From a virus, in IMG/VR virus record IMGVR_UViG_3300035701_006900, positions 1 to 36,008 of that record: a stretch of 36,008 nt of DNA; one strand, given 5' to 3'. Within the stretch, counting starts at the first letter, position 1, and each line of letters begins with the position of its first letter. Under the pieces are notes generated by a model. The model was given only the letters and a program-made list of their open reading frames with translations, did not search any database and had not been told where the DNA came from. The position numbers and the translations under genes are program-made. This document shows positions 30,235 to 35,949 of this stretch, piece by piece.

Positions 30235-30456
30235 ATGGAAATTATGGACAAAATTATGGACGTTGCAAAAGGGATTATGTCTCTATTGGGCGTATCATTG
30301 GGAATTGCAATCTTCTCTGAACTTCTCTTCGGAAAGTTCTTGGGAGACTTCAGCGTAGTAGGAAATCTTCTTACTGTGACTGAGAAAATGGGTTCTGCAG
30401 GACTTGCTGGTCTTGTTGCACTTATGCTCGTAGTGAGCTTTGTGAACAAGAAGTAA
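30235..30456 (+). CDS. Small hydrophobic membrane protein, probably highly expressed
   Basis: 73 residues with two hydrophobic segments (about 12-33 and 50-70) and short charged ends; ATGs at 30235 and 30244 are both possible starts. Its codons end in C or G more often than neighbours (CTT CTC TTC GGA, GGA GAC TTC AGC), and it sits alone before a very strong terminator, both signs of high expression. Candidate roles are holin, antiholin, superinfection exclusion or membrane remodelling; the sequence does not decide. Confidence 0.6.
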   Translation: MEIMDKIMDVAKGIMSLLGVSLGIAIFSELLFGKFLGDFSVVGNLLTVTEKMGSAGLAGLVALMLVVSFVNKK

Positions 30457-30478
30457 CATCCTAGTTAATTCTAAAATT

Positions 30479-30513
30479 AGAGGAAAGTCGAAAGATTTTC
30501 CTCTTTTTTTTTT
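30479..30513 (+). terminator. Strong rho-independent terminator with GAAA loop
   Basis: AGAGGAAAGTC (30479-30489) pairs with GATTTTCCTCT (30494-30504, one G-U) around a GAAA tetraloop, followed by ten T residues. Confidence 0.93.
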
Positions 30514-30545
30514 CAACAAATGTAGAATATGATTGTAAAACTTAT

Positions 30546-30553
30546 ATATTTAT
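30546..30553 (+). promoter_or_regulatory. Late-type promoter motif ATATTTAT
   Basis: ATATTTAT, 14 nt before the ATG at 30568; overlapping TATATTTA could also act as a host-type -7 box. Confidence 0.4.
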
Positions 30554-30567
30554 AAAAACTATAACCT

Positions 30568-31135: not shown

Positions 31136-31699
31136 ATGAAGAAAAAAACACTAGTCGTAAATTTTTTCGCAGGGCCAGGAACTGGAAAAAGCACATTTTG
31201 TGCTGGAACTTTCGCTGCACTAAAGTGGGGTGATGTTGACTGTGAGATGGCACTTGAGTATGCCAAGGATTTAACTTGGGAATCAAGTTCTACGGATAAA
31301 AAGAAAAAAAAGGTTAAAAATCCCAAACTTGAAAACCAACTATATGTATTCGGAAAACAACAGCACAGGATATTTAGATTAAATGGAAAAGTCGATGTTA
31401 TAGTAACCGACTCCCCACTTCTCCACTCATTAGTGTATGACACTGGAGATAATAAGGCCTTGGAAAGTCTTATACTTGAGGAACATTCTATGTACGATAA
31501 CTTAAACATATTTCTGAGAAGAAAGAAAAAGTACAACCCAAACGGCAGAAGTCAAACTCTTCAGCAGGCAATAGAGTTAGACAATAACATAAAACATATG
31601 TTAGATATGCACAGTGGTGGATACGAAATAATAGACGCTGTACCTAGAAACATAAAGATGGTTGTTAAATTAATAAGAAAAAGACTGAAGATAAAATGA
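31136..31699 (+). CDS. P-loop NTPase (small kinase-like)
   Basis: 187 residues. Walker A GPGTGKST at about 13-20 follows a hydrophobic strand (LVVNFFA), and VDVIVTDSPLLHSL near 90 is a Walker B-type strand. FLRRKKKYNPNGRSQTLQQA has the basic lid seen in nucleotide kinases. It resembles P-loop proteins of other large phages annotated as AAA ATPase or kinase, substrate unknown. It overlaps the radical SAM gene by ATGA (31696-31699), so the two may act in one pathway. Confidence 0.7.
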   Translation: MKKKTLVVNFFAGPGTGKSTFCAGTFAALKWGDVDCEMALEYAKDLTWESSSTDKKKKKVKNPKLENQLYVFGKQQHRIFRLNGKVDVIVTDSPLLHSLVYDTGDNKALESLILEEHSMYDNLNIFLRRKKKYNPNGRSQTLQQAIELDNNIKHMLDMHSGGYEIIDAVPRNIKMVVKLIRKRLKIK

Positions 31700-33252
31700 T
31701 TACGATTAAAAGCATAAGATACGGACACGCCAACAATAGCAGCTCTAGTCATTCTATTGTTTTTTTGGGAGACAAAAAAGTCATAGATGATTATAATGAA
31801 GGTGAGTTCGGATGGGATGAGTTCACTCTTTCTTCTAGAAAAGCCAAAGAAGAATATATGTTTGTTCAACTTATGTATAGCCTTCCGTCTGTAACTAAAT
31901 ATAGTTATGGTGTTATTGTAGAGAAGACAATAACCGAAGAGTCAAATCGCTATTCTAGTGAATATCAACAAAGACCTGAAGTCAGAATGTATCAAGCCAG
32001 AGTAATGCTTAAGGAATTTTCGGATGTGTTTACAGAAATAAATTTAGAAGAATACGCACAGAAATTTGTTGACAATGACGACTATGGTATCGTAGACCAT
32101 CAATCCGTTAATGGTTTTGCTGTAGACATAAATGGTGCATTGCATTATTCATTCGTCAGAAAAATTCTCAAGACAATTTTCGAAAATAACTTCGTCATAC
32201 TAGGAGGTAATGATAATAGTGATAATAACCATCCTCATAAAGGACATCATATTGAGAATTCATTTTCCAAAAAAATAATGAATGTTTTCAATTTAATATC
32301 TGGTAATTCTACAGAGAGCATTATTTGCGTTGAAGATGAAGTAAATGGAGACTTTATATTGAGAAATAAATACAGAGGGGATAAGATAAGATTTTCATTC
32401 GAGAAGAATTCTCCTAAAACCAAAAAAGCAGGATTTCCAGAGTTGGTCGACATAAAAATAACTAGTCATTGTGCATATGGATGTTCATTTTGTTATCAAT
32501 CATCTACCGCTCAAGGACAGCACGCATCTCTTGATGATGTTAAGCGAGTGATTGACATTCTTGCTAATTCAAAAACATTTGAAATTGCCATAGGTGGCGG
32601 TGAGCCAACAACTCATCCTGAACTTGCTAAAATACTTGAACACGCTTCTGCTAAGGGAATGTCTGCTGGATTTACAACAAGAAACTTCAAAATTGATGAA
32701 GTGCCTGGGTTTGAAAGGATAATGAATACTGCTGACTCTATAGCGTTTTCGTGCCATAGTGCGAAAGAAATAAGTCGAGTTTATGAAATAGCGGATATCG
32801 TATCCAGCATCATTAGAATACATAGCGAAAGACCGAATTTTTATATACAAATCATACCAGAGCTGTATACAACAAAGCATTTTACTGAAATGCTTGATAT
32901 GTGTGCGAATCGTTGGATGCCAGTAACACTTCTTGGATATAAGGATTTTGGATTTGGAAAATCATACGAGCCAAAGAATCTTAACACCTCTTCTGATTGG
33001 ATTGATGTTGTGAAAGGACTGAGTAAAAAAAGAGACCTTAAGATAGGAATTGATTCTGTGTTAGTTAAAAAATGGAAAAAAGAACTTATAGAAAAAGGGT
33101 GCAACAAACTTATGCTTGTAGGTGAAGAAGGTAAATTCAGTTGTTATGTCGATGCTGTCGAGAAGCGTATTGCTAAATCATCATTTATAGACGAAAGCGA
33201 ACCGCTTGATATGGAAAAGTCGACTATACTAGAAGAGTTTAAAAAATACTAA
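31696..33252 (+). CDS. Radical SAM enzyme with N-terminal RYGHANNSSSSHS domain
   Basis: 518 residues. The radical SAM core starts near 250: CAYGCSFC (C259, C263, C266) binds the 4Fe-4S cluster, and IAIGGGEPTTHPEL (around 300) is the SAM-binding GGE motif. The first ~245 residues are not a known radical SAM domain; they begin MITIKSIRYGHANNSSSSHS, a Ser-rich motif I associate with uncharacterised phage proteins. More cysteines near the end (KGCNKL, FSCYV) may bind an auxiliary cluster. Substrate unknown: nucleic acid base, nucleotide or peptide are all possible. It is co-translated with the P-loop NTPase. Confidence 0.82.
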   Translation: MITIKSIRYGHANNSSSSHSIVFLGDKKVIDDYNEGEFGWDEFTLSSRKAKEEYMFVQLMYSLPSVTKYSYGVIVEKTITEESNRYSSEYQQRPEVRMYQARVMLKEFSDVFTEINLEEYAQKFVDNDDYGIVDHQSVNGFAVDINGALHYSFVRKILKTIFENNFVILGGNDNSDNNHPHKGHHIENSFSKKIMNVFNLISGNSTESIICVEDEVNGDFILRNKYRGDKIRFSFEKNSPKTKKAGFPELVDIKITSHCAYGCSFCYQSSTAQGQHASLDDVKRVIDILANSKTFEIAIGGGEPTTHPELAKILEHASAKGMSAGFTTRNFKIDEVPGFERIMNTADSIAFSCHSAKEISRVYEIADIVSSIIRIHSERPNFYIQIIPELYTTKHFTEMLDMCANRWMPVTLLGYKDFGFGKSYEPKNLNTSSDWIDVVKGLSKKRDLKIGIDSVLVKKWKKELIEKGCNKLMLVGEEGKFSCYVDAVEKRIAKSSFIDESEPLDMEKSTILEEFKKY

Positions 33253-33257
33253 TAAAA

Positions 33258-33289
33258 TTTTGCATACTGAACAATCAACCTTATATTTG
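33258..33289 (+). promoter_or_regulatory. Bacteroidetes-type promoter
   Basis: TTTTG (33258-33262), 19-nt spacer, TATATTTG (33282-33289): the best consensus match in the window. A 27-nt leader precedes the ATG at 33317. The transcript may extend through the structured RNA at 33847. Confidence 0.78.
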
Positions 33290-33316
33290 CACTCTTATTA
33301 ATAAATAAAACACTAA

Positions 33317-33841
33317 ATGAAAATCACAGTAACAGAAGCACTCAGATTGAAAAACGAAATATCCAGTATCGTTAATACCTTGAATTATGCTTCTAACACA
33401 GCTCAGTTCGGAATTCTTAAAGAAGATGAGGTAGTAGTTTCTGAAGAAAAAGATAGCTTCACACAAGTTTTTGGCAGATTCAATAAGGCTTTGGATTTTT
33501 CTGCAGAGATTAATAACGCCTTGGCTAATTTCAACAGAGAGACTAGCATTGACGCAAAAGTTCGTACAATGCATAATGAGAAACTTAAGCACCAAATTCT
33601 GTCAAGTGCTCTTCCTAAAACAAAACCATCATCAACAACTAGATTTGAAAATTTAGGAAATGGACAAAGAAAGGCTATAAAAGTTTCTTACACTCCAACA
33701 ATCAATTCGAATGAGGTTAAAAAATTGATGGCTCAGTCAAAAACAAACATGAGAGCACTTCAAACTGAAGTTGAAAAGCTCAATCAAAAAGAAATTACAC
33801 TTTCTTTCGAACATTCAGATATTGAATCGCTCGTAGAATAA
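33317..33841 (+). CDS. Hypothetical helical protein, possibly DIP1984-like
   Basis: 174 residues with heptad-like helices throughout (TEALRLKNEISSIVNTLNYAS, FNKALDFSAEINNALANFNRE, MRALQTEVEKLNQKEITL). The N-terminal ~90 residues loosely follow the DIP1984/septicolysin-like pattern (xxEALxLKxxI...INxxNxxT), but this is tentative. It is the first gene of a strongly promoted unit whose 3' part is a structured RNA. Confidence 0.6.
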   Translation: MKITVTEALRLKNEISSIVNTLNYASNTAQFGILKEDEVVVSEEKDSFTQVFGRFNKALDFSAEINNALANFNRETSIDAKVRTMHNEKLKHQILSSALPKTKPSSTTRFENLGNGQRKAIKVSYTPTINSNEVKKLMAQSKTNMRALQTEVEKLNQKEITLSFEHSDIESLVE

Positions 33842-33846
33842 AATAC

Positions 33847-34074
33847 TCCCAGGTCAGTAGGAAGGGTTTCGGAATACCCTTATACCGAATATGTGCAAGC
33901 CCAGAATAGACTTGATAGCTACCACCGGTTAGGCGAAAAATAACTGGTACTACAATTATGGTGCAAACCGTCGTGATGCAAAACGCAAAATGTAAACTGT
34001 AGATGGCGGAAGCCGGTAAAAATGAAAATTGTAATAATGTATGAACTTTGAAACAATTTTCCGAACGCCTGGGA
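33847..34074 (+). ncRNA. Structured RNA of unknown class
   Basis: About 230 nt without a convincing reading frame. Closing stem: TCCCAGG (33847-33853) with CCTGGGA (34068-34074). Inside: AAGGGT/ACCCTT (33862/33876) whose loop TTCGG can pair with CCGAA at 33885, a pseudoknot; CAAG/CTTG (33896/33911); ACCGGTTA/TAACTGGT (33924/33941) with a GGCGAAAAA loop; GGC-GGAA-GCC (34005); GAAAATTGT/ACAATTTTC (34024/34053). No match to tRNA, tmRNA, RNase P, 6S, group I or II intron, or cobalamin riboswitch by eye. It ends 16 nt before the ATG at 34091, so it could be a cis-regulatory leader or a separate RNA. Confidence 0.65.
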
Positions 34075-34090
34075 AACTTATTTAAAACTT

Positions 34091-34288
34091 ATGTTGACAA
34101 AAATATTTCTCCTTATAATATGGTTTATAGTCATTGTGGCTTTGTGGGTATTTGCTACCAGCACAACTGTGACTAACGAAAAATACAAACACTACGAATT
34201 TAGAATAAAAAGTTTCTTTTATTGGCTCGCTACCATCGTTTCATTATTAATAGGCCTTTTAATGGCATATATCCCTTCTGAACAGTAG
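34091..34288 (+). CDS. Small two-helix membrane protein
   Basis: 65 residues with membrane helices at about 3-22 and 42-60, joined by a basic loop (NEKYKHYEFRIKS). No family recognised. It follows the structured RNA directly, which may control it. Confidence 0.55.
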   Translation: MLTKIFLLIIWFIVIVALWVFATSTTVTNEKYKHYEFRIKSFFYWLATIVSLLIGLLMAYIPSEQ

Positions 34289-34302
34289 AGTGTAAATTGT
34301 GT

Positions 34303-34310
34303 CTATTTAT
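34303..34310 (+). promoter_or_regulatory. Late-type promoter motif CTATTTAT
   Basis: Exact CTATTTAT, 14 nt before the ATG at 34325. Confidence 0.45.
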
Positions 34311-34324
34311 AGGAAATTCAGCAT

Positions 34325-34552
34325 ATGGAAAAGGAGCAAAAAAGAAAAATACTACACAAAGAGTTCGACACAATTATCCATGAATTTGAAGCGAAATTAA
34401 AGGAATTTCAAAATAGAAATAGTGATATGCGTATGGATTTACAGGTGGAACTTAAGGAGCCGAGGACTGTTGGCATCTATGATATGCCCGACAAGTTAAT
34501 TCAAAACAAAGCTTTCTTGTTCGATACAAAATTTATTCTAATTACGGAATAA
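34325..34552 (+). CDS. Small hypothetical late protein
   Basis: 75 residues: a charged helix (KEFDTIIHEFEAKLKEFQNRN) and a short beta unit (LQVELKEPRTVGIYDMPDKL). Unknown. It converges with the minus-strand gene ending at 34542, overlapping 11 bp. Confidence 0.55.
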   Translation: MEKEQKRKILHKEFDTIIHEFEAKLKEFQNRNSDMRMDLQVELKEPRTVGIYDMPDKLIQNKAFLFDTKFILITE

Positions 34553-34790
34553 TCGGTCCGCCAATTATTCCCAAGAACCTTGTCCACGTTACTCTAATGG
34601 ATGTTGTGTTGCCTCTTTCAATCTCTTCGATAGTTGGAGCAAAATAAAGAATTAACTCTTGATTTATAAGAGCGTATCCAGTAAAGCGTCTATCTACTCC
34701 GTCAATTGCATAAACAACACCTTCTCCATTAGCATCTCTTAGGCGGTTTCTATACCTAAGAATATTTCCTTTTGCTTCTTCTTCTGTCAT
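34542..34790 (-). CDS. Small hypothetical protein next to the transposase
   Basis: 82 residues from ATG 34790; the longer frame runs into the transposase. Starts MTEEEAKGNILRYRNRLRDANGE and has a hydrophobic end (FLGIIGGPIIP). A TATGTTTA box lies 6 nt before the ATG on the minus strand, so it may be leaderless. It lies 35 nt beyond the transposase stop on the same strand. Whether it belongs to the insertion or to the phage is unclear. Confidence 0.5.
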   Translation of the reverse strand: MTEEEAKGNILRYRNRLRDANGEGVVYAIDGVDRRFTGYALINQELILYFAPTIEEIERGNTTSIRVTWTRFLGIIGGPIIP

Positions 34791-34805
34791 ATGTTGTAAA
34801 CATAC

Positions 34806-35768
34806 GACTTTCCGAGAGTCGGTATTAAGCGGCCATCTGCAAAATAAGCTCAAACATTTTCTCTGGCTGACCTTTGTTTTCGCTTCGAAATGAATTTTCT
34901 GCTATGTATTTTGGTAAGTGTTTATAGCTAACATTGATGTGAGTTCCTCTTATCATTCGCTTTAACGAACTCCAAAACGTTTCTATTGGGTTGGTGGAGA
35001 ATCCGGATTCATTTCTAAACTCTCCGCGCTGATGATTGACGACTTGGTGGTCCAGAAATTCATTTTTTAATCCAGAGTAGGCTCCGAAACCGTCAGAGAT
35101 AATCCGAGCGTCTTTATCTACATATTTCCGAATGATTGGTTTAAGGATTTCACCTGTTGGTTCTCCGTCAAGTACAACTGTAATCACGCGGCCTTTTTCA
35201 TCCATCATTCCGAACACCGGAATTTTACCTCCGTGCCCAGTTCCTTTTTTCTGCTTGTACTTATGTTTATTCAGCATTTTGCCTCCAATGAATGTTTCGT
35301 CAACGATGATATTGCCGGTCAGTTTTTCTTCTGAAGTCGAAACCATAGCTTTTCGTATTTGTCCGGCCATACGCCACGCTGTTTTGTATGTGACATTAAA
35401 CTGTCTTTGCAGTTCTTTGGCGGCTACGCCATTGCGAGTTGTAGTATAGAGAAAGATTGCTTGGAACCAAAAGACGAGAGGCGTCCGGCTCTTGTGCATT
35501 ACGGTACCGGCTGTTGGATATAGCTGGTAACCGCACTCAGTACATTGATAACAGCGCCTGGTCTGTATTCTCTTGAATTTGGCGTCTACAACAGCACAAC
35601 AGGGACAGGCTCCTAAATTGCCGAATTTGATTTGGAATAGTTTGTCCAAGCAGGACTTATCATCGGGATAGTCCTTGCGAAATTGGTCAAAACTGTAAGT
35701 TTTGGGCTTTTTTGACTCTTGTATACCGTCAGGCATACACTTAGAAAACGCATCATTCTCCGGAAAGT
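34806..35768 (-). mobile_element. IS1595/ISXO2-type insertion sequence (approximate limits)
   Basis: Limits are set by a candidate inverted repeat: GACTTTCCGAGAG on the plus strand at 34806 and, inverted, CTCCGGAAAGT at 35758 (11 of 12 positions with one gap). The repeats lie just outside the transposase gene (7 and 22 nt). No target-site duplication was seen, so the true ends may differ or the element may be immobile. Its base composition is richer in G and C than the surroundings, and it holds 2 of only 5 GCGC sites in the window. Confidence 0.5.
34825..35736 (-). CDS. IS1595-family (ISXO2-like) transposase
   Basis: 303 residues, full length. An N-terminal zinc ribbon (CPCC ... CYQCTECGYQ) is followed by TPLVFWFQAIFLYTT and the ISXO2 domain: first Asp in IVDETFIGGK, second Asp in IISDGFGAY, then NHQRGEF and STNPIETFWSSLKR with the last acidic residue. 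RKLVPV-type linkers typical of host ISs are absent. No frameshift is seen, so the enzyme may be active. Transposases of this family occur in Bacteroidetes chromosomes, the likely source. Confidence 0.88.
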   Translation of the reverse strand: MPDGIQESKKPKTYSFDQFRKDYPDDKSCLDKLFQIKFGNLGACPCCAVVDAKFKRIQTRRCYQCTECGYQLYPTAGTVMHKSRTPLVFWFQAIFLYTTTRNGVAAKELQRQFNVTYKTAWRMAGQIRKAMVSTSEEKLTGNIIVDETFIGGKMLNKHKYKQKKGTGHGGKIPVFGMMDEKGRVITVVLDGEPTGEILKPIIRKYVDKDARIISDGFGAYSGLKNEFLDHQVVNHQRGEFRNESGFSTNPIETFWSSLKRMIRGTHINVSYKHLPKYIAENSFRSENKGQPEKMFELILQMAA

Positions 35769-35949
35769 TTCAGATTTGGGGAAATATATTTTGGCTTACT
35801 GTCTTGAAGGGATATATGCCCTTTTAATCGGTAGTTAGCAACTGTTGATAATCCGTAGAAATAGCGTATATTTACTTTACGTGATGTACCTAGAGAAAAC
35901 ATATATAAACCAATATTTTGCTATGAAGCTCCTCGACACAACATAAGTC

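Follow-up and report, generated by a model that had tools for sequence, protein, structure and literature searches.

In a large phage of Bacteroidota type, the gap that separates two genes may encode a lineage-specific, compactly folded intercistronic RNA domain of about 230 nt, most likely on the + strand, an explanation given somewhat less than even odds. The window, that is, the whole stretch of DNA analyzed, corresponds to a single IMG/VR virus record (36,008 bases, GC content 35.1%). The gap spans 33842-34090 (249 bases) between ORF 33317-33841 and ORF 34091-34288, both on the + strand, and the candidate structured RNA occupies 33847-34074. As a plausible orphan structured RNA, the candidate is modestly supported by its composition, its fold and its position among the neighboring genes.

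The first-pass annotation described the segment as a gap between genes, and no ORF of at least 50 aa with a start codon is present in 33842-34090. The GC content of 33847-34074 is 41.7%, compared with an average of 28.9% for the other gaps and 35.3% for coding sequence. In an AT-rich genome, a gap with elevated GC is a common sign of structured RNA. The gap could instead be functionless, consisting of decayed or unselected sequence with raised GC that folds by chance, a reading regarded as unlikely but one to be reckoned with. A frame on the - strand (33795-34088, 97 aa) is open through the whole gap, as might be the case for a decayed gene, and is absent from the list of ORFs that have a start codon. 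The possibility of a decayed protein gene was rejected on the grounds that this frame and two other frames match no protein family, a result that speaks against the functionless reading.

The predicted + strand fold is closed end to end by a 7-bp stem, P1, in which UCCCAGG (33847-33853; pair probability 0.86-0.98 in a 299-nt context) pairs with CCUGGGA (34068-34074), the stem as a whole having a pairing probability of about 0.9-1.0. The P2 hairpin, AAGGGU-UUCGGAAU-ACCCUU, lies at 33862-33881, with strands 33862-33867/33876-33881, a loop at 33868-33875 and a pair probability of about 0.76-0.9. Five bases of this loop, UUCGG (33868-33872), are the exact complement of CCGAA (33885-33889) and form the 5' side of a possible pseudoknot, the 3' side of which has a rival in a weaker helix, 33883-33887/34014-34018. 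Two further hairpins are found at 33924-33948 (stem ACCGGUUA/UAACUGGU, strands 33924-33931/33941-33948, pair probability 0.62-0.90) and, toward the 3' end, at 34024-34061 (GAAAAUUGU/ACAAUUUUC, strands 34024-34032/34053-34061, pair probability 0.86-1.0), while the central region displays competing pairing solutions. The 7-bp closing stem, the several inner helices and the loop able to pair downstream, all proposed from the first reading of the sequence, are thus supported by the pair probabilities and the complementarity of the two pseudoknot strands.

The same reading raised the idea of a two-state switch in which CCCAG at 33900 competes for CCTGGG at 34068, and this idea is contradicted by the structural ensemble. 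Pairing of CCCAG (33900-33904) with the region 34064-34077 has a probability of 4.5e-5, rising to 0.003 when the 5' half of P1 is blocked from pairing. A switch of this kind calls for two helices that exclude each other and are similarly stable; such a pair is not seen here, and the switch was rejected.

The segment folds modestly better than chance. In comparison with shuffles, the fold has z values of -2.1 to -2.4 (+ strand) and -3.7 to -3.8 (- strand, with none of 200 shuffles as low), and the minimum free energies are -59.2 and -62.1 kcal/mol, respectively. On each strand, the fold z lies beyond all 80 windows sampled per strand in the shuffle-based comparison. A composition-corrected scan gives the + strand fold only -1.5, with stronger sites elsewhere in the window, a result in keeping with a functionless gap. 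Of 2000 dinucleotide shuffles, 3 contain an end helix of 7 bp or more with five or more GC pairs, and 16 contain a pseudoknot hairpin comparable to that of P2; both counts are post hoc, as the elements were seen before testing. In the entire window, this pseudoknot hairpin is the sole one of its kind on the + strand, and the - strand has none. The end helix and the outlying fold z on both strands argue against a fold that arose by chance. The strongest RNA fold in the window is found at another site, 30290-30560 (z -5.0), where an ORF at 30235-30456 (73 aa, hydrophobic, no family) is followed by an 11-bp terminator at 30479-30504.

Comparable folds on both strands are typical of inverted repeats and are consistent with a DNA-level element, such as a replication, packaging or recombination site, the inverted repeats of which would mimic RNA helices. 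Such an element is considered very improbable. G-U pairs, which are needless for DNA, are present in both predicted folds (10 on the + strand and 7 on the - strand), and the gap belongs to no repeat family of the neighborhood.

By fold statistics, the complement of 33847-34074, which the first-pass annotation did not remark on, is an equal candidate. It may be a - strand small RNA of about 230 nt with a promoter of its own at 34101-34073 and, past the closing stem, a 3' end in AUUUUAUU; it would act as a regulator in trans or antisense to the operon. This explanation is judged rather improbable. The lower free energy and z of the - strand given above are in its favor, as is an 8-bp hairpin, CAAGUCUA-UUC-UGGGCUUG, with two G-U pairs, which is present only on the - strand, A-C mismatches breaking its + counterpart. 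A promoter-like element, TTTG-N17-TAAGTTTC (34073-34101, - strand), matches at 9/10 positions and ends at the first bases of the complementary RNA; beyond the closing stem, this strand continues into a U-rich stretch. The element could be due to chance: the - strand of the 36 kb has 45 sites of this score, and a 17-base spacer is short. The U-rich end goes uncalled in the terminator scan, so that promoter and end together are only a hint. The unpaired bases of the - strand are mainly U, but likewise in shuffles of the same composition. A-rich loops, considered as evidence for the + strand, were discarded as not significant because shuffles give the same.

The analysis leans to the + strand as the transcribed strand because the gap lies within a series of genes of the same direction, a strong promoter is located upstream and the terminator scan detects no terminator-like site on the + strand between the two flanking genes. 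The promoter, TTTG-N19-TATATTTG at 33259-33289 (+ strand), is of the Bacteroidota type and matches the consensus TTTG / TAnnTTTG (PMC7366714) at 10/10 positions. The very good promoter placed before the segment in the first-pass annotation is therefore real, but it serves a separate gene rather than lying immediately before the RNA: it ends 558 nt upstream, in front of ORF 33317-33841. It could reach the RNA by read-through of that ORF.

The upstream ORF (33317-33841, + strand, 174 aa) ends 5 nt before the candidate RNA, and its product faintly resembles the DIP1984 family over its full length (E 0.12, 12.6 bits, cutoff 70). The segment directly precedes a small membrane-protein gene, as first reported: the product of ORF 34091-34288 (+ strand) is a small protein that contains two hydrophobic stretches. 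It is now 65 aa long, compared with 60 aa at the reconstructed empty site, where it would end ...LLIGLLIGS before the stop. The difference is due to a complete IS1595-family insertion of 1557 bp (34264-35820, - strand), with terminal inverted repeats, an 8-bp target duplication (CTTTTAAT) and a transposase ORF at 34825-35736. The element sits in the last codons of the membrane-protein gene, the final residues of which are rewritten by the IS end, and the candidate RNA at 33847-34074 is not touched by it.

For the preferred intercistronic RNA on the + strand, we infer a single mRNA that would start at the promoter at 33259 and span ORF 33317, then the folded domain, then the gene for the small membrane protein. 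The end-closed multi-branch domain may stabilize or process this mRNA and may set the level of the membrane protein. The start codon of the membrane-protein gene (34091-34093) is itself partly paired in the prediction, with an unpaired probability of only 0.23-0.32. In favor of this account are the raised GC, the end helix, the pseudoknot hairpin, the fold z, the upstream promoter, the absence of a terminator-like site on the + strand between the genes, the partial pairing of the start codon and the lack of a recognizable coding remnant in the frames tested. Against it stand the absence of a homologue, the stronger - strand fold, the low composition-corrected score and the post hoc nature of the element tests.

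The gene content of the window places the candidate in a phage setting. The window harbors a UvsX-like recombinase, a DnaB-type helicase, a ribonucleotide reductase, a DNA methyltransferase and an RNA ligase, in addition to genes for an exonuclease, a helicase, a thymidylate-kinase-like protein and a radical SAM protein. Because replication and nucleotide genes are common to the window and two jumbo phage records of 372 and 389 kb (most at ∼37-57% identity), the window is probably a piece of a large phage genome. Two observations make a Bacteroidota host likely: the perfect match to the promoter consensus and the nearest relatives of the IS1595 transposase, which are found in Bacteroidetes MAGs at 49-62% identity. 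The radical SAM protein (31696-33252, 518 aa) has the prokaryotic viperin model as its best NCBIfam match, and at 49 bits, below the cutoff of 180, it is a viperin relative rather than a member; distant relatives are found in Salmonella phage Arash and Microcystis phages. The 372-kb jumbo phage record, G404, which is related to the phage of the window, contains 46 predicted tRNAs, a GOLLD RNA match (L168:1517-1900 (-), 226.6 bits) and a small-SRP-like match. tRNA matches with an insertion of ∼60-80 bases occur in G405 (L199:15539-15672 (-), 134 bases) and in G404 (L168:7856-8007 (-), 152 bases).

Searches for known RNA classes and for relatives of the candidate were negative within their range. 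In the whole window, no Rfam 15 family reaches its gathering score and a default ARAGORN scan detects no tRNA or tmRNA; strict ARAGORN scans of 33301-34400 detect no intron-bearing tRNA or tmRNA. The initial description of a structured RNA of no known class is consistent with these scans, as the segment is statistically structured and GC-rich, with no recognizable gene. Searches of the gap by blastn against phages, plasmids and E. coli returned chance pieces or nothing, and exact 16-base seeds from the 3' end, the P2 hairpin and the central segment have matches in IMG/VR that all carry unrelated flanks. No relatives were found via the flanking genes, namely ORF 33317, the small membrane-protein gene and the radical SAM gene.

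The ribonucleotide reductase and helicase genes led to seven related records. A single-sequence covariance model run against these seven and the huge phage LR756508 gave nothing above chance, nor did nhmmer and blastn on five of the seven, four of which were searched again by covariance model. One match in record G001 (E 0.02) was rejected, as it falls inside the ribonucleotide reductase gene of that record. In 395 Bacteroidota genomes, the covariance model and blastn gave approximately the expected number of matches or short AT-rich pieces. The candidate is thus an orphan in the blastn, exact-seed and single-sequence covariance-model searches, with no homologues in which to test covariation, and this is consistent with a functionless gap. 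As records very near the window may be missing from the collections searched, the failure to find close relatives does not prove that the candidate is rare.

A wider claim can be made for the candidate, namely that it belongs to a hitherto undescribed class of compact phage RNAs of about 230 nt with a pseudoknot, encoded on one strand or the other and so far confined to one orphan lineage of Bacteroidota-type large phages. This claim is possible but doubtful. As a well-defined candidate without relatives, it settles no open question yet.

Among known RNAs, the best sub-threshold match inside the segment is the ZMP/ZTP riboswitch (RF01750, pfl motif), at 34033-34081 with 18.1 bits and an E value of 1.2, compared with a gathering score of 39. 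The likeness consists of 13 bases that match, with one mismatch, the most conserved 3' segment of the family, together with a hairpin, UUUCC-GAACGCCUG-GGAAA with loop GACCGCCUG, that resembles P3. That the candidate is a divergent riboswitch of this family, in control of the downstream gene, is nevertheless scarcely credible. The ZTP aptamer contains a pseudoknot between J1/2 and the P3 loop (PMC7337938), whereas the candidate has no recognizable 5' domain (P1, J1/2 and P2 are unmatched) and no such pseudoknot. The alignment leaves out the 5' core, the adjacent AT-rich hairpin being all that it pairs. GGCG is confined to the loop of another, unrelated hairpin and one strand of a helix rather than lying in a J1/2, and the 3' segment of the match is also engaged in the closing stem of the candidate. 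No purine or one-carbon gene is adjacent. With the 5' domain missing, the riboswitch assignment is largely refuted.

Structured leader and intercistronic mRNA elements offer a second comparison. The candidate differs from them in having no homologue found and no known ligand, and resembles them in its position between genes of the same direction, its end-closed fold and the partly paired start codon downstream.

GOLLD and ROOL are structured non-coding phage RNAs of unknown function (PMC12286853). They are several hundred nt or more in length, in contrast with about 230 nt for the candidate, and the window has neither an Rfam match nor tRNA genes. The likeness is that of a structured RNA in a phage, and the distantly related jumbo phage G404 has its GOLLD copy near tRNA genes. 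If real, the candidate would be one more orphan structured RNA among those of large phages, in which the roles of GOLLD and ROOL are likewise unexplained, and, being small, it would be easier to probe than either.
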